The position numbers were made by a program, and so were the translations under genes. Under the pieces are notes generated by a model. That model searched no databases. It saw only the letters and a list, made by a program, of their open reading frames with translations, and was not told the origin of the DNA. A stretch of DNA of 64,000 nucleotides from Gemmatimonadaceae bacterium (lineage in GTDB: Bacteria > Gemmatimonadota > Gemmatimonadetes > Gemmatimonadales > Gemmatimonadaceae): the NCBI GenBank assembly GCA_040882285.1, contig JBBEBQ010000018.1:1-64000 (forward strand). Direction: 5' to 3'. Shown one piece after another: positions 28,792-34,631 of this stretch. Within the stretch, counting starts at the first letter, position 1. The number at the start of each line of letters is the position of its first letter.

Positions 28792-29676
28792 TCAGAGCGC
28801 GCGAACCGCCGCTACGATCTGATCCGAGCTGCCCGTGACCACGTAAGTGATCCGGCCGTTCGGCCCGATCGCGTAGACCATGGTAGGGTGGGAGAGGTCG
28901 CCGGTTCGCTCGTTGCGAATACGCGGGATCCTCCATTTGCTCAACGTGCGCTCGACATCCTCGATCGAGCCGCTCAACACATGCGCGTCGCCGGTCAGCC
29001 CCCACTGCTTCGCGATCGCCGGCAACCGGCTCGGCGTATCGCGGAACGGATCCAGCGTTACCACGATCACCGCCGGGGTCCGCACCGGATCGGTCGCCGC
29101 GATCTTATCGCGGGCCGACAGCACGTCGTTCACGACCAGCGGACATACCGTCTCGCAATGCGCGAAGGCAAACGTCACCAGCACGGCCCTGCCGTGGTAT
29201 CGATCCAGCCTGACCGTATCGCCGGATTGGTTCACCAGCGAGAGCGCGGGTGGAACGTCGTTGATCCGCGTGAGCTGCTGTGCCAGGCTGGTGGCAGGGT
29301 TCGGATCGAACGGCTCCGCGTTGACCTCGCGCACGCGCAGTACCACGCTCCCCACGGCGGCGACCAGCACGGCCGAGATTATTCCGACCGTTATCTGGCC
29401 GGTCGTGCGCTCCAGCAGCCTGCTGATTCCCGCGCGCGTGTCTCCGCCCCAAACCGCCAGCAGCAGCAGCAGCATGCCGAGCGGCTGGCCGATGAGCAGC
29501 ACCCAGCCGCCGGCGTCAGGCAGTCCACCGACGCCCGCCCCAAAGCACACGTAGCGCGTCCGTGCCAGCCACTCCGGCGCCTCTGCCGTCAGCGGCCAGA
29601 GGGCCAGCGCCCACCACGCCGCCGTGATCAGAATGATCAGGGCGAGCGCGGCGAGCGCCGGCGTTCCGCGCCGCAC
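28792..29676 (-). CDS. SCO1/SenC-type copper protein with multi-helix membrane anchor
   Basis: The C-terminal half is a thioredoxin-fold SCO domain with the copper CxxxC motif in FAFAHCETVCPLVVND, VTLDPFRDTP, and the ligand His in LSHPTMVYAIG. SCO proteins deliver copper to CuA of terminal oxidases, which suits the CuA subunit encoded in the same operon. Unusually, the first ~120 residues carry three hydrophobic segments (ALIILITAAWWALALWPL, WVLLIGQPLGMLLLLLAVW, GIISAVLVAAVGSVVL) instead of one anchor. Start uncertain: GTG 29676 lies 5 bases after the subunit I stop; GTG 29697 is also possible. Last gene of the operon, with a terminator beyond it. Confidence 0.85.
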   Translation of the reverse strand: MRRGTPALAALALIILITAAWWALALWPLTAEAPEWLARTRYVCFGAGVGGLPDAGGWVLLIGQPLGMLLLLLAVWGGDTRAGISRLLERTTGQITVGIISAVLVAAVGSVVLRVREVNAEPFDPNPATSLAQQLTRINDVPPALSLVNQSGDTVRLDRYHGRAVLVTFAFAHCETVCPLVVNDVLSARDKIAATDPVRTPAVIVVTLDPFRDTPSRLPAIAKQWGLTGDAHVLSGSIEDVERTLSKWRIPRIRNERTGDLSHPTMVYAIGPNGRITYVVTGSSDQIVAAVRAL

Positions 29677-29681
29677 CTGTA

Positions 29682-31466
29682 TCAGCCGATCCTCCACACG
29701 AACGAGAGCACCTTCCAGTTCACGAAGAAGTACAGCATGAACGCGGCGAGGAATACGAACACGAGCACGAGCGTCCCCGGCGCGGGGCCCATCCAGCCGG
29801 CTTCGGGTCCGTGCATCCTCTCCCACCGCTCGTCCACGTCCGCGCTATGCTTGGGCGGGTGGGTGAGTCCCTGCGGCACTCCGCGCATGTTGCTGAGCGG
29901 AACCACCTCGCCGAGCGCCTCGCCGAAGAACACCGATTTCACCGCGATCGCGATGAAGATGAAGGCTCCCGTCGCGGCCGTCACCCCGCCGAGCGCGACC
30001 AATGCGAGGAACATGTCCACCGCGGGGCTGAACGCCACGTCGAACGGCGCCTGGCTGAAGCTGATGTCCCAGTGCCGCCGCGGCACTCCAAAGGTGCCCG
30101 CGAAGGTCATCGAGATCGTGAAGATGACCATTCCGCCGGCGAAGATGTACGGCTGCAGCTTCGCGAGCGACCAGAGCGCGACTTTCTTCCGGAATACGAG
30201 CGGGATCAGATAGTACGTCAATCCCATGAACGCCATGGCCGTGCCGCTGACGACCGTCGCGTGGAAATGGCCGGGCGAGCGGAGCGTGTTGTGCACGATG
30301 ATGTTGATCTGCTCCGTGCCGATCGTGACGCCGGTGATGCCGCCTATGAACCCGAACACTACGATGGACAGCACCAGCGAGCTGAAGCCGGGATCGCCCC
30401 ACGGCGCCCTGCGCAGCCAATCGAACATGCCGTTGGTGTAGCCACGCAGCCGCATGCCAAGCTCCATTCCTGCCGGAACGGTGAAGCCGTGCAGCAACGA
30501 CGCGAGGACGGCCATGTACATGAAGTAGCTGGTGTTCACGATCTTCCATGCCGATCCCATTCCGGGATCCACGAGCAGGTGGTGCGCCGACGCCAAGGAG
30601 ATGAACAGGATGTACAGCACGAACGCCGAGCGGCTGATCTTCTCGTTGAGCACGACCGCGCCCACCGTGAGCGCGCCGAGCATGTACCAGATGGCGACCA
30701 TGGCCGCGACGTTGATCTGCTGCGAGGAATGGCCCAGCGCCCACCAGAGCAGCCGGTACACCTGCGGGTCCACTTCCATCAGACCCAGCGACCAGAGGAA
30801 GGTGGGGATGTAGATCATCGCGCCGTGAACCAGCGTGATCGCCGCGATGATCGCGGCGGTCATCGCGCCGTATACCACGAGGGGCATGGACCCCTCGTAA
30901 GTGCGCTCGCGCTTGGCAATCGCGAGGTTCGCGAAGAAGACTCCGGTGACGATCAGCGCGCCGACCGCGAACAAAATGACACCGAGGTAGAAGAGCGGGT
31001 GCGCGCGCAACGGCACGTACGAGGTGAACAGGACGTCCGCCTTTCCGGCCCACATCAGGTACTCCACCATCAGCGCGCCGAGCAGCATCAGGCCGTACGC
31101 GAACCACGACGTCTTCGGCGCGACGTTCCTGGCGTTCAGCAGCGCGGTGCTCGTGAAGTGCAGCACCGCCATCTCGAAGAAGATGATGAAGAAGATGAGC
31201 ATGCTCATCCCGTGCACGCCCAGAATGCGGTAGAACCAGACCGCGGGCAAAAGGTGCACGGCCTGCCAGCGCGTGAGCACGATGAGCACCGCCGCGATGG
31301 CGCCCACCAGCAGCGCGACGATCGACGTCACGGCGTTCCATCGCGTCAGGCTCAGCGCCACCTCGTCCAATCTGCGGCCGGTAAATGGGCATACGGTGAA
31401 CCGCGTGCCGGCCGGAACGCCCGTTGCCGGTCCGATCGCGGATGCGGGTACGATCGGCGCGCTCAC
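29682..31466 (-). CDS. B-family heme-copper oxidoreductase subunit I, candidate eNOR-type nitric oxide reductase
   Basis: A 594-residue polytopic membrane protein with all six metal ligands: H85 (GVHGMSM), H246 (WWALGHSSQQ), H295/H296 (SAHHLLVDPG), H400 and H402 (SPGHFHATV). The SPGHFH and HHxxxDPG patterns resemble B-family (ba3) enzymes. Oxygen reductases have HPxVY after the helix-VI His, with Tyr cross-linked four residues on. Here position 250 is Gln (H-S-S-Q-Q). Loss of that Tyr is a hallmark of NO-reducing branches; as I recall, Gln is described for the eNOR group. Annotation pipelines would call it cytochrome c oxidase subunit I. GTG start overlaps subunit II by 4 bases. Confidence 0.85.
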   Translation of the reverse strand: MSAPIVPASAIGPATGVPAGTRFTVCPFTGRRLDEVALSLTRWNAVTSIVALLVGAIAAVLIVLTRWQAVHLLPAVWFYRILGVHGMSMLIFFIIFFEMAVLHFTSTALLNARNVAPKTSWFAYGLMLLGALMVEYLMWAGKADVLFTSYVPLRAHPLFYLGVILFAVGALIVTGVFFANLAIAKRERTYEGSMPLVVYGAMTAAIIAAITLVHGAMIYIPTFLWSLGLMEVDPQVYRLLWWALGHSSQQINVAAMVAIWYMLGALTVGAVVLNEKISRSAFVLYILFISLASAHHLLVDPGMGSAWKIVNTSYFMYMAVLASLLHGFTVPAGMELGMRLRGYTNGMFDWLRRAPWGDPGFSSLVLSIVVFGFIGGITGVTIGTEQINIIVHNTLRSPGHFHATVVSGTAMAFMGLTYYLIPLVFRKKVALWSLAKLQPYIFAGGMVIFTISMTFAGTFGVPRRHWDISFSQAPFDVAFSPAVDMFLALVALGGVTAATGAFIFIAIAVKSVFFGEALGEVVPLSNMRGVPQGLTHPPKHSADVDERWERMHGPEAGWMGPAPGTLVLVFVFLAAFMLYFFVNWKVLSFVWRIG

Positions 31467-32050
31467 TGGAGGTCTCCGGCCGCGGCCGCGACTGGTGCCG
31501 TCGACGAATCCTCGACGATCACCCTCCCGACCATTGTGTGGTGGCCGATTCCGCAGAACTCGTTGCAGATGATCCGGAAGTCACCGGCCGCGTTGGGGGT
31601 GACCCGCAGGCCGTAGTCGTAGCCCGGCACGACCTGGAAGTTGATGTTGATCGGATACAGCGAGAACCCGTGATTCACGTCGAGTGAGGACAGGTGCAGG
31701 ATGTACTCCTTGCCTTTCTGCAGCTTGAGAATCGGAGTCCACTGAAAGGCCATCGCGGTCAGATAGATGTCGGCTCCCGGCGGAGGAGCCACGATCGGCA
31801 TGCCGCGGTCGTCGCCCACCTTGTACTGGTTGGTGAACTCGAGTGTGCGCTTGTAGAACGCGGCCGGCTCGACGCGTCGCCGGATGCCCGACGGATTCTG
31901 TCCGCCCTTCCAGTGCCAGAGCGGCATCATCGCGAAGAGCACCATGCACCACGCGAAGGCGATGACGACCCACGTCTTTTCCGACCGGTGCGCCGGCTTC
32001 CACCAGTTACCTTTGGGCGAATCGAGCCCGGTATGGATATCGATGTGCAT
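31463..32050 (-). CDS. CuA-containing subunit II of the heme-copper oxidoreductase
   Basis: A 195-residue protein with one N-terminal membrane anchor (WVVIAFAWCMVLFAMMPLW) and a periplasmic cupredoxin domain. The CuA ligand set is complete: H127 (DVNHGFSLYP), then C162, E164, C166, H170 and M173 in CNEFCGIGHHTM. It should accept electrons from a soluble donor such as cytochrome c or a cupredoxin and pass them to subunit I. There is no fused cytochrome c domain. The single anchor matches the B-family arrangement. Its presence fits CuA-type NO reductases as well as oxidases. Confidence 0.92.
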   Translation of the reverse strand: MHIDIHTGLDSPKGNWWKPAHRSEKTWVVIAFAWCMVLFAMMPLWHWKGGQNPSGIRRRVEPAAFYKRTLEFTNQYKVGDDRGMPIVAPPPGADIYLTAMAFQWTPILKLQKGKEYILHLSSLDVNHGFSLYPININFQVVPGYDYGLRVTPNAAGDFRIICNEFCGIGHHTMVGRVIVEDSSTAPVAAAAGDLQ

Positions 32051-32060
32051 GAGTGTGCCC

Positions 32061-32231
32061 TTAGGGGAGTTCGGCGGGTGGGAGCGTCACGATCTCCCAG
32101 AGGCCCCACGCCGTGAAAATCGCGAACATGATGACGAGACCCAACGCGAGCAGGAGCCACACGTTGTCGAATAGTCGTTGCCAGAGTGGAATCGGCTCAG
32201 GCGGCGAATCGTCGCTTCGGAGATCAGTCAT
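32061..32231 (-). CDS. Small single-helix subunit (IIa-like)
   Basis: A 56-residue protein starting at ATG 32231, with one transmembrane helix (VWLLLALGLVIMFAIFTAWGLWEIV) and a Pro-rich N-terminus. It is 10 bases upstream of subunit II. B-family oxidases of the ba3 type have a comparable one-helix subunit IIa that completes the helix missing from subunit II. That role is inferred from size, topology and position; there is no sequence motif to confirm it. Confidence 0.7.
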   Translation of the reverse strand: MTDLRSDDSPPEPIPLWQRLFDNVWLLLALGLVIMFAIFTAWGLWEIVTLPPAELP

Positions 32232-32391
32232 GAGGTTTGCGGGATTGAGAAGCCGGGAGCGGATTATCAGGTCGCGAACAATCACAAAGTACGACGAGGT
32301 GACGCATCAGTGAATGCTCTGATATATGGTGTAGGGATTTGCCTGACACACGCCCCTCCTCACCCGCCCGCATGAACCGCTCGCATCACTG
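32232..32391. other. Divergent intergenic region, oxidoreductase operon / cytochrome b fusion
   Basis: These 160 bases must contain the start signals of both the minus-strand oxidoreductase operon and the plus-strand cytochrome b fusion gene. The only symmetry I see is ATCAG-N8-CTGAT at 32306-32323, inside an AT-richer stretch (TGATATATGG). It does not match the FNR/DNR consensus TTGAT-N4-ATCAA, and I cannot identify an NsrR- or NorR-type site. No clear sigma-70 pair was found. Confidence 0.5.
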
Positions 32392-33960
32392 ATGGCCGCT
32401 CCATCCCGCCCCGCGGAGCGCTTTGTTCTCCGTTTCCTCACGCTGGCCGACGCGACCTCCAACCGCCTGTACGGCTGGAAGTACAACCCGCTGTATCAAA
32501 GCGGGACGATCGCGGTTGCGCTGCTCTTCGTCCTGCTCGTCAGCGGACTGTGGCTGACCTTCTTCTACCGTGTCGGCACGCCCTACGACTCGGTAGCGCG
32601 CATCACCGCGGATCCCTGGCTCGGCAACTGGATCCGCGCGCTGCATCGCTACGCCAGCGACGCGGCGCTCGTCGCGGTCGCCGTGCACGCGGCGCGCATG
32701 TACGCGCAGGGCCGGAGCTGGGGACCGCGCGCGCGCGCCTGGATGAGCGGCGTGGTGCTCCTCCTGCTCGTGCTCGTCTCGGGCTGGACGGGGTATGTCC
32801 TGGTCTGGGACTCGTTCGGGGAGGTGCTGGCGCTCGAGGGTGCGCGGATGCTCGACGCGCTCCCCGTCCTCTCGGAGCCGATGTCGCGCGCGTTCACCGG
32901 CGAGCGGCCGCTGCCGAGCGTTTTCTTTTTCATCAACCTCTTCGCCCACGTCGGAATCCCGCTCAGCATGTTCGCGGTGCTGCTGTTGCACACCTCGAAG
33001 CTGGCGCGGCCGAAGCTGCTCCCGCCCAAGCCGGTGATGTGGACGCTGATCGGCGCCCTCGTCGCGCTTTCCGTCGTCCGGCCGCTGGCCATGGCGCCGG
33101 AGGCGAATCCGTTGCGCATTCCGGCGTCCGTGCCGGCCGACTGGTTTTACGCGTTCTGGCTGCCGCTGTCCCGGTCGCTCGACGGAGGCACCGCGCTGCT
33201 GGGCGCTGCGCTCACGTTCTTCGCGGTGCTGCTGATCCCTCTTGTAGCCAAGCGGCGGGGCGAGCAGGCACCGCCCAAGTCGGTGGTGGACGAAGATATC
33301 TGCGTCGGGTGCCGGCAGTGCGCGCTCGACTGCCCGTACGAGGCGATCACCATGTTCGCGCGCAGCGACGGACGCTCCGAGGAAGTGGCTCGCGTCGATC
33401 CCGATCTCTGCGTGAGCTGCGGGATCTGCGCCGGCTCCTGCGCGCCCATGGGCGTGGGCCCCCCGGGCCGCACCGGCCGCGACCAGCTCTCCCGCGCGCG
33501 CGCTTTCATCGCGCGGCCCGAGCGGCGGGAAGGTGAGCTGGTGGTGATCTGCTGCGAGCGGGGCGCTCCGAATCTCGCAAAGGAGGCCGACGCACGCGGC
33601 GTGGTGCTGTATCCAGTGGACTGCGCCGGCAGCCTGCACACGTCGGTCATCGAGCTGCTGGTGCGAAGCGGAGGCGGCGGAGTGCTTACGCTCGCGTGCC
33701 CGCCGCGCGACTGCTGGAATCGCGAGGGGCCGCGCTGGCTGAACGAGCGCGTGTATCACGATCGGGAAGCGGAGCTGAAGGCCAGGGTGGACCGCCAACG
33801 GGTCAGGCTCGCGTTCGCCAACGCGAGCGAGCCCGCGAAGGCGTGGGCTGCCATCACCGGGTTCCAGGAGCAGCTTCGCCTCGCCGGAGAGCAGGTGGCG
33901 GAGCCGGTAGTGGCCATCGATCTCGAATGCGATCCCGTGCCGATCGGCGAGGAAACATGA
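32392..33960 (+). CDS. Cytochrome b / 2x[4Fe-4S] ferredoxin / MvhD-like fusion protein
   Basis: A 522-residue three-module electron carrier. Residues 1-205 form a cytochrome b N-domain with paired heme ligands H85/H99 and H186/H200 (14-residue spacing in both helices) and SGWTGYVLVWD. Two further membrane helices follow to about 288. A ferredoxin domain has CVGCRQCALDC (C304, 307, 310, 314) and CVSCGICAGSC (C340, 343, 346, 350). The C-terminal part resembles the MvhD/FrhD iron-sulfur subunit: VVICCERGAP, PVDCAGSLH, LTLACPPRDCW. It probably links the quinone pool to a cytoplasmic iron-sulfur donor. No hydrogenase or Hdr genes are present nearby. ATG start. Confidence 0.87.
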   Translation: MAAPSRPAERFVLRFLTLADATSNRLYGWKYNPLYQSGTIAVALLFVLLVSGLWLTFFYRVGTPYDSVARITADPWLGNWIRALHRYASDAALVAVAVHAARMYAQGRSWGPRARAWMSGVVLLLLVLVSGWTGYVLVWDSFGEVLALEGARMLDALPVLSEPMSRAFTGERPLPSVFFFINLFAHVGIPLSMFAVLLLHTSKLARPKLLPPKPVMWTLIGALVALSVVRPLAMAPEANPLRIPASVPADWFYAFWLPLSRSLDGGTALLGAALTFFAVLLIPLVAKRRGEQAPPKSVVDEDICVGCRQCALDCPYEAITMFARSDGRSEEVARVDPDLCVSCGICAGSCAPMGVGPPGRTGRDQLSRARAFIARPERREGELVVICCERGAPNLAKEADARGVVLYPVDCAGSLHTSVIELLVRSGGGGVLTLACPPRDCWNREGPRWLNERVYHDREAELKARVDRQRVRLAFANASEPAKAWAAITGFQEQLRLAGEQVAEPVVAIDLECDPVPIGEET

Positions 33961-34631
33961 AGTCCGCGCTTCGCTTCCTCGCCGCGGCCACGCTCAGCGC
34001 CGCCGTCCTGCTCGCGACCGCCTGGGGATCGATCGCTCCACTGAAGGTTGCCCGGGGCGATGACGCGATCATGCGAATCTCGCTGGGCGCGCGGCCGGAG
34101 CGCATCGAGATATGCCGCCGGCAGACCGACGAGGAGCTCGCCAGGCTAGCCCCGCAGATGCGACAGAGCGTCGTCTGCGAAGGGACCACCGCGCGCTACC
34201 GCCTGGAGGTTCGCCGGAACGGCGCGCTGCTGCATTCGCAGGTCGTGCGCGGTGGCGGCCTGCGCAACGATCGCCCGCTGTACGTTTCCCGGGACCTGCC
34301 GGTTCCGCCGGGTCCGGCCGCTTTCGCGGTTCGCCTCTCCCGCATCGACACGATTCCCGCCGACCAGCAATCAACTTCGGCCGCGGACGACGACGACGAT
34401 GACGACGACGATCGACGGGTTGGAGAAGACGACGTCCCTCGCCCGGGAGACCTGCCGCCCGCACGGGCGCGGCGCGAGATCGACGAGCGTCGTCGCCGCC
34501 GGGAGGAGTCCATTCCCGCCGAGCTGCGGCTCGACCTGGACGTCAGTCTCGAGCCCCGCGAGGTGGTGCTGGTGAGCTACGACCAGCGGAGCCGCCGCCT
34601 CATCAGGGTCAGCGGGGATTCACTGCCGTAA
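33957..34631 (+). CDS. Exported protein with poly-Asp tract, unknown
   Basis: A 224-residue protein I do not recognise. It starts with a signal peptide or anchor (LRFLAAATLSAAVLLATAWGS). A presumably beta-rich part follows (ARYRLEVRRNGALLHSQVVRGGGLRNDRPLYVSRDLPVPPG), then nine consecutive Asp residues near position 145, an Arg-rich segment, and a final beta-like stretch (LRLDLDVSLEPREVVLVSYD). Its ATG overlaps the cytochrome b fusion stop by 4 bases, so it is co-translated and may be an accessory periplasmic subunit. The acidic tract could bind metal ions, but that is a guess. Confidence 0.7.
   Translation: MKSALRFLAAATLSAAVLLATAWGSIAPLKVARGDDAIMRISLGARPERIEICRRQTDEELARLAPQMRQSVVCEGTTARYRLEVRRNGALLHSQVVRGGGLRNDRPLYVSRDLPVPPGPAAFAVRLSRIDTIPADQQSTSAADDDDDDDDDRRVGEDDVPRPGDLPPARARREIDERRRRREESIPAELRLDLDVSLEPREVVLVSYDQRSRRLIRVSGDSLP

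Follow-up and report, generated by a model that had tools for sequence, protein, structure and literature searches.

A putative eNOR-type nitric oxide reductase operon and its linked cytochrome b/FlpD genes in a Gemmatimonadaceae genome

By all sequence criteria tested, the operon with its subunit I gene at positions 29682 to 31466 of the window, i.e., the whole 64,000-nucleotide stretch of Gemmatimonadaceae DNA analyzed in this study, encodes a genuine eNOR. Gln was found in subunit I at the site of the cross-linked Tyr, all haem and CuB histidines are intact, a CuA subunit II is encoded by the adjacent gene, and the Gln-bearing sequences formed a clade outside the oxygen reductases. Taking all results together, the operon very probably specifies a haem-copper eNOR that is sister to the B family, contains a CuA subunit II, most likely serves as the link from NirK to NosZ, and is accompanied by a probable accessory module. 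The eNOR family is already known, and the Gemmatimonadaceae enzyme represents a further member of it; additional interest lies in the linked redox module, whose divergently oriented genes (32392 to 34631, forward strand) were absent from an initial sequence-only reading of this DNA and belong to the same system. The following features were identified in the window:

29682–31466, reverse strand: predicted eNOR subunit I, 594 aa, GTG start (PF00115, alignments, trees, AlphaFold2 model)
31463–32050, reverse strand: subunit II, 195 aa, one helix and a cupredoxin domain (CoxB match below cut-off; ba3 subunit II, E 1.5e-19)
32061–32231, reverse strand: subunit IIa-like single-helix ORF, 57 aa from ATG; alternative open GTG start at 32285
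28792–29697 (approximately), reverse strand: SCO1/SenC-type copper protein with N-terminal helices (PF02630)
32232–32391, no strand: divergent intergenic region, presumed to hold the promoters of both operons (gene layout)
32392–33960, forward strand: fusion of cytochrome b, two [4Fe-4S] motifs, and an FlpD-type domain, 522 aa (Pfam, PDB matches, conserved residues)
33957–34631, forward strand: protein termed c4, 224 aa, N-terminal helix and Ig-like beta domain (ATGA overlap with the fusion gene)

Gene Content of the eNOR Operon

The operon is transcribed from the reverse strand in the order IIa-like ORF (32231 to 32061), subunit II (32050 to 31463), subunit I (31466 to 29682, with a frame open across all 594 aa), and SCO1/SenC (approximately 29697 to 28792). 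The sequence-only reading had described a complete CuA subunit II, a IIa-like helix, and an SCO-type copper protein, and each of them was recovered. In subunit II, the five CuA ligands H127, C162, C166, H170, and M173 were aligned to those of the ba3 subunit II, and the gene was found beside subunit I across the homologous loci. The IIa-like helix corresponds to the one-helix ORF at 32061 to 32231 (reverse strand), and a small gene of similar size is located directly upstream of subunit II in the eNOR loci of Defluviimonas, Thermomicrobium, and Thermus. The copper protein was assigned by its match to PF02630; its gene overlaps the 3' end of subunit I, with 29826, 29697, or 29676 as candidate starts, and SCO genes were detected near eNOR in 71 out of 84 loci of other genomes.

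Active-Site Residues of Subunit I

The haem ligands (H85, H400, and H402) and the CuB ligands (H246, H295, and H296) of subunit I, as well as Q250, were all found at the residue numbers proposed from the sequence alone. Q249 and Q250 replace the V–Y pair, and the placement of Q250 at the site of the cross-linked Tyr, likewise part of the initial claim, was obtained in two independent alignments, namely a MAFFT alignment with A- and B-family enzymes and a phmmer alignment with the Thermus thermophilus ba3 oxidase (Y237 in ba3 numbering). The motif GHS.QQIN was seen again in the examined relatives, and Q249 together with Q250 occurred in 39 out of 39 eNOR-clade members and in none of the 13 B-family sequences, indicating that the Gln motif is the product of neither chance nor a sequencing error. 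In the same comparison, E98, Q249, Q250, N252, N311, Y314, and H326 proved to be invariant and clade-specific. The AlphaFold2 model of subunit I (pLDDT 83) found its best structural matches among ba3 structures, with TM-scores of approximately 0.75–0.80 against B-family oxidase structures.

Several unusual variants of subunit I were encountered among the homologues. An eNOR-like subunit I of a Bacteroidetes MAG (L136/L161) features GHPAQQVN, in which the Pro of the oxidase motif is retained and QQ is already present. The plasmid-borne subunit I of T. thermophilus (L053:7977–9662 and L054:7980–9662) carries GHFK instead of GHFH, so that the residue predicted to bind the low-spin haem is Lys. 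Furthermore, a degenerate haem-copper subunit I-like protein of approximately 464 aa (L116:6457–7848, forward strand) adjoins eNOR in about ten Pseudomonadota loci; it contains GHTIQF and one His where the CuB pair is expected, and similar genes are present in L087, L092, L098, L105, L110, L115, L119, and L130.

Phylogenetic Placement and Comparison with Related Enzymes

Homologues of subunit I were collected from the host's relatives, from plasmids, and from named genome contigs. Plasmid homologues belonged to Defluviimonas (49%), Thermomicrobium roseum (48%), and T. thermophilus (44–49%), and those on genome contigs to Gemmatimonadota, Acidobacteriota, Proteobacteria, Nitrospirae, Nitrospinota, Rokuibacteriota, and others. 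The Gln sequences formed one clade in a quick tree (SH-aLRT 100) as well as in a more careful one (bootstrap 100, SH-aLRT 99), and this clade spans many phyla. It was placed as sister to, and outside of, the B family including the demonstrated oxidase ba3, with the A and C families apart; the sisterhood with the B family is less certain than the monophyly of the Gln group because of the long branches between the families. The trees covered these homologues and the A, B, and C families, with Thermus and Thermomicrobium standing in for the biochemically studied eNOR of R. marinus. The family itself was reportedly treated by Hemp and Gennis in 2008 and by Murali and colleagues in PNAS in 2024.

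The B-family appearance noted in the sequence-only reading thus stood as far as the metal ligands, the CuA site, and the ba3-like model are concerned, whereas the tree position is that of a sister group and not of a B-family member. Placement inside a clade of oxygen reductases, which had been named as counter-evidence, was not observed, and the trees ruled out a position of subunit I among the A, B, or C oxidases. The residue four positions past the CuB His of helix VI, which is Gln250 and not Tyr, also argues against a B-family oxygen reductase. The diagnostic feature of eNOR is a Gln at the cross-link Tyr site of subunit I, combined with a cupredoxin subunit II (PMC8756737), in agreement with the mention of Gln for eNOR in the sequence-only reading. 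At the same site, oxygen reductases have Tyr, cNOR and qNOR have Glu, sNOR and CuANor have Asn, and gNOR has Asp (PMC8756737; table A4 for sNOR, gNOR, and CuANor). Assignment to cNOR or qNOR, for which a haem c subunit or a fused quinol-dependent form would be expected besides Glu, was rejected on the basis of Gln250 and the CuA subunit II.

Compared to the known eNORs, for which Thermus, Chloroflexi, and Proteobacteria members have been named (PMC8756737), the present enzyme shares the Gln, all haem and CuB ligands, and the CuA subunit II, and related sequences fall within the same clade. It differs in that the Gemmatimonadota subclade is 44–96% identical to other members and lacks an adjacent cyoE, and in that the Gemmatimonadaceae eNOR is flanked by the divergent cytochrome b/FlpD fusion and c4 genes, which are absent from the eNOR literature examined. 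With the B-family oxidases (T. thermophilus ba3 and A. aeolicus 7deg), it has in common the fold, the metal ligands, the CuA subunit II, and the IIa-like helix, whereas the identity is only about 30%, the clade is separate, Tyr is replaced by Gln, and Thr312 of ba3 by His326. sNOR, gNOR, and CuANor (bNOR) resemble eNOR as CuA-type NO reductases without the Tyr and deviate from it by their Asn or Asp.

The sNOR genes are arranged as norSY-senC-orfX, and the CuA subunit II and the SCO (SenC) gene of the operon would also suit an sNOR of the NorSY-SenC type. This assignment is hardly credible, however, since the Tyr position is occupied by Asn in sNOR (PMC8756737, table A4) as opposed to Gln in every aligned member, the present Gln250 included. 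An oxygen reductase that works without the canonical Tyr, for example by means of Tyr285 of helix VII, and that has only an incidental denitrification context, would be in line with metal ligands and a CuA site that are all as in a B-family oxidase, and with the presence of Tyr285 in 38 out of 39 clade members as compared to Phe in the B family. This clade-specific Tyr represents the residual caveat regarding the missing active-site Tyr. The substitute Tyr of cbb3 enzymes is located six residues ahead of the CuB His pair (pattern FLYIWAGPHH); the corresponding residue of subunit I is I289, and the other aligned eNORs likewise have no Tyr there, so that a cbb3-like substitute, the second item of counter-evidence named beforehand, and membership in the C family were both ruled out. 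Tyr285, however, lies at HH-10, one helical turn beyond this position, and is unlikely to be cross-linked. The Gln clade stands apart from all oxidases, denitrification and NO-linked genes recur near eNOR, and the host already possesses an A-family oxidase; accordingly, we regard the oxygen-reductase explanation as very improbable. A single proton channel of the K type would be expected for an eNOR; in the K-path comparison with ba3, S323 and Y261 are kept (ba3 S309 and Y248), T312 is changed to H326, and Y237 and Y244 are lost. More likely, Tyr285 would belong, together with H326 and the lost Y244, to a modified K-type proton path of the eNOR.

Oxidases and Denitrification Genes of the Host

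The host genome (96.6% complete) was examined by family-wise profile searches. Its full-length PF00115 proteins comprise one A-family oxidase and the eNOR only, which answers the initial question about another terminal oxidase. The PF00115 search, which does pick up cbb3 and NorB-like genes when applied to other genomes, returned no cNOR, qNOR, or cbb3 in the host, and no bd oxidase was found by a family search. The suggested lack of norB was thereby borne out: the two weak PF00115 matches considered as candidates are four-helix proteins of roughly 130–145 aa and do not represent NorB. These small proteins (C14:48395–48766, adjoining nirK, and C19:12840–13205) match the N-terminal third of PF00115, and a homologue is encoded in the eNOR locus L099. 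Regarding denitrification, the host encodes a NirK (best PDB match nitrite reductase 3wi9, E 8.5e-58), a clade II NosZ above the cut-off, and a NapA-like protein whose score falls short of the curated threshold.

To evaluate these links across the phylum, 395 Gemmatimonadota genomes were surveyed, 84 of them carrying eNOR. In association tests that ignore phylogeny, eNOR was positively associated with clade II nosZ (42 common genomes, OR 2.5, p 4e-4) and with above-cut-off NirK (22 common genomes, OR 3.2, p 4e-4), and the lower-scoring NirK class, which includes the host's own, showed no positive association (OR 0.45). Four genomes (G184, G185, G231, and G251) have NirK encoded no more than approximately 6 kb away from eNOR. 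Furthermore, the neighborhoods of 84 eNOR loci outside the host, 80 on genome contigs and four on plasmids, were compared to 14 control loci of other oxidases. Genes for a cytochrome d1 protein, NirJ, NosR-like proteins, or NirK were detected in 19 out of 84 eNOR loci vs. 2 out of 14 controls, a difference that alone is not significant by Fisher's exact test. More weight is given to haemerythrin (25 out of 84) and Rrf2 regulators (16 out of 84), both absent from all 14 controls, and to the partner genes described below. In other phyla, nirJ, d1, nosR, nirK, Rrf2, and haemerythrin genes recur near eNOR.

A main function in NO detoxification, and not in respiratory denitrification, has to be weighed against this background. 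Clade II nosZ is missing from half of the genomes that carry eNOR and above-cut-off NirK from most of them, and Rrf2 and haemerythrin near eNOR suggest an NO response. The genus g73 (G081, G087, G089, and others) comprises 17 genomes with eNOR that have neither nirK nor clade II nosZ, a pattern pointing to NO detoxification or the use of external NO. On the other hand, the host itself has both NirK and NosZ, eNOR shows positive phylum-wide associations with nosZ as well as NirK, and nirJ, d1, and nosR genes adjoin eNOR elsewhere. Detoxification as the main role is therefore a possibility that we take seriously but lean against.

Proposed Role of the Enzyme

Family placement, residues, gene linkage, co-occurrence, and genome content were determined from sequence, and NO reductase activity is suggested by family membership. 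For the enzyme, we infer that electrons would enter at CuA and pass via the low-spin haem to the high-spin haem/CuB site, where two NO would be converted to N2O. Proton uptake would proceed by a modified K-type path involving S323, H326, and Y261, and the SCO protein would load copper. A role as a four-electron O2 reductase appears unlikely, because the Tyr for splitting of the O–O bond is replaced by Gln250. In the Gemmatimonadaceae host, eNOR would most likely connect NirK as the producer of NO to clade II NosZ as the consumer of N2O. Points against the overall reading are the OR of 0.45 for the host's NirK class, genus g73 without nirK or nosZ, and Tyr285 in helix VII.

Surveys limited to norB miss an NO-reducing step carried by eNOR, and half of the eNOR-bearing Gemmatimonadota also carry clade II nosZ. 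Among Gemmatimonadota genomes with denitrification genes, 13% were reported to have nir and nosZ without nor in a survey that included eNOR references (PMC12569097). Automatic annotation would label the enzyme as cytochrome c oxidase, as anticipated in the sequence-only reading, and such mis-naming of eNOR genes is frequent (PMC8756737).

The Divergent Cytochrome b/FlpD Fusion and c4

The fusion protein has the haem ligands H85, H99, H186, and H200 in 59 out of 59 homologues, conserved Cys residues in its FlpD-like domain (59 homologues), and a Qo-like D250 at the position of the Glu in the cytochrome b PEWY motif. With cytochrome b6/bc1 cytochrome b, FlpD/MvhD, and HdrA, it shares two b-haem His pairs, the Qo-like DW[F/Y] region, two [4Fe-4S] motifs, and the FlpD Cys set; it differs from them by joining all of these in one protein, by the lack of a Rieske protein among its conserved neighbors, and by its linkage to eNOR. 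The c4 protein features one predicted membrane helix and two Cys that are invariant in the alignment of its Ig-like domain. It matched no Pfam or NCBIfam family, and no PDB structure reached E 0.001 in a fold search with its structure model (pLDDT 85.6).

The fusion was present in 64 out of 84 eNOR loci of other genomes and c4 homologues in 51, compared to none of the 14 control oxidase loci in either case. Within the 395 Gemmatimonadota genomes, fusion and eNOR occurred together in 79, with five eNOR-only and three fusion-only genomes (p 7e-73, uncorrected for shared descent), and at 75 out of 79 eNOR places compared, the fusion was located on the same contig no more than 6 kb away. In Pseudomonadota, the pair has another gene order, the fusion lying downstream in the same direction, and the only near-full-length match in a plasmid search with the fusion was the Defluviimonas eNOR plasmid. 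The fusion gene was not found beside the Thermus or Thermomicrobium eNORs and is thus not universally required.

The fusion and the co-transcribed, membrane-anchored c4 probably form an accessory electron-transfer module. By analogy with bc1, a cytoplasmic orientation would be expected for the Fe-S/FlpD part, and as to the function of the module, we infer that both proteins probably serve electron exchange among quinone, a partner in the cytoplasm, and possibly also eNOR. It is less likely than not that they constitute a dedicated, previously unrecognized complex acting as the redox partner of eNOR, through which quinone and a FlpD-linked partner in the cytoplasm would be coupled to the reduction of NO; if true, denitrification would have an electron route besides bc1 and cytochrome c. 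No paper on a fusion–eNOR association was found in literature searches that combined FlpD and cytochrome b with NOR or haem-copper enzymes, and the nearly one-to-one inheritance of eNOR with this unstudied fusion offers a testable lead on the electron supply of eNOR, a subject unaddressed in the literature examined.

The fusion is also the sole PF00033 cytochrome b found in the host. A QrcB-like molybdopterin-type protein, scoring below the cut-off, is encoded at C5:84802–85860 (L195) and may belong to an alternative complex III; such a complex would be consistent with the presence of no other PF00033 cytochrome b in this genome.
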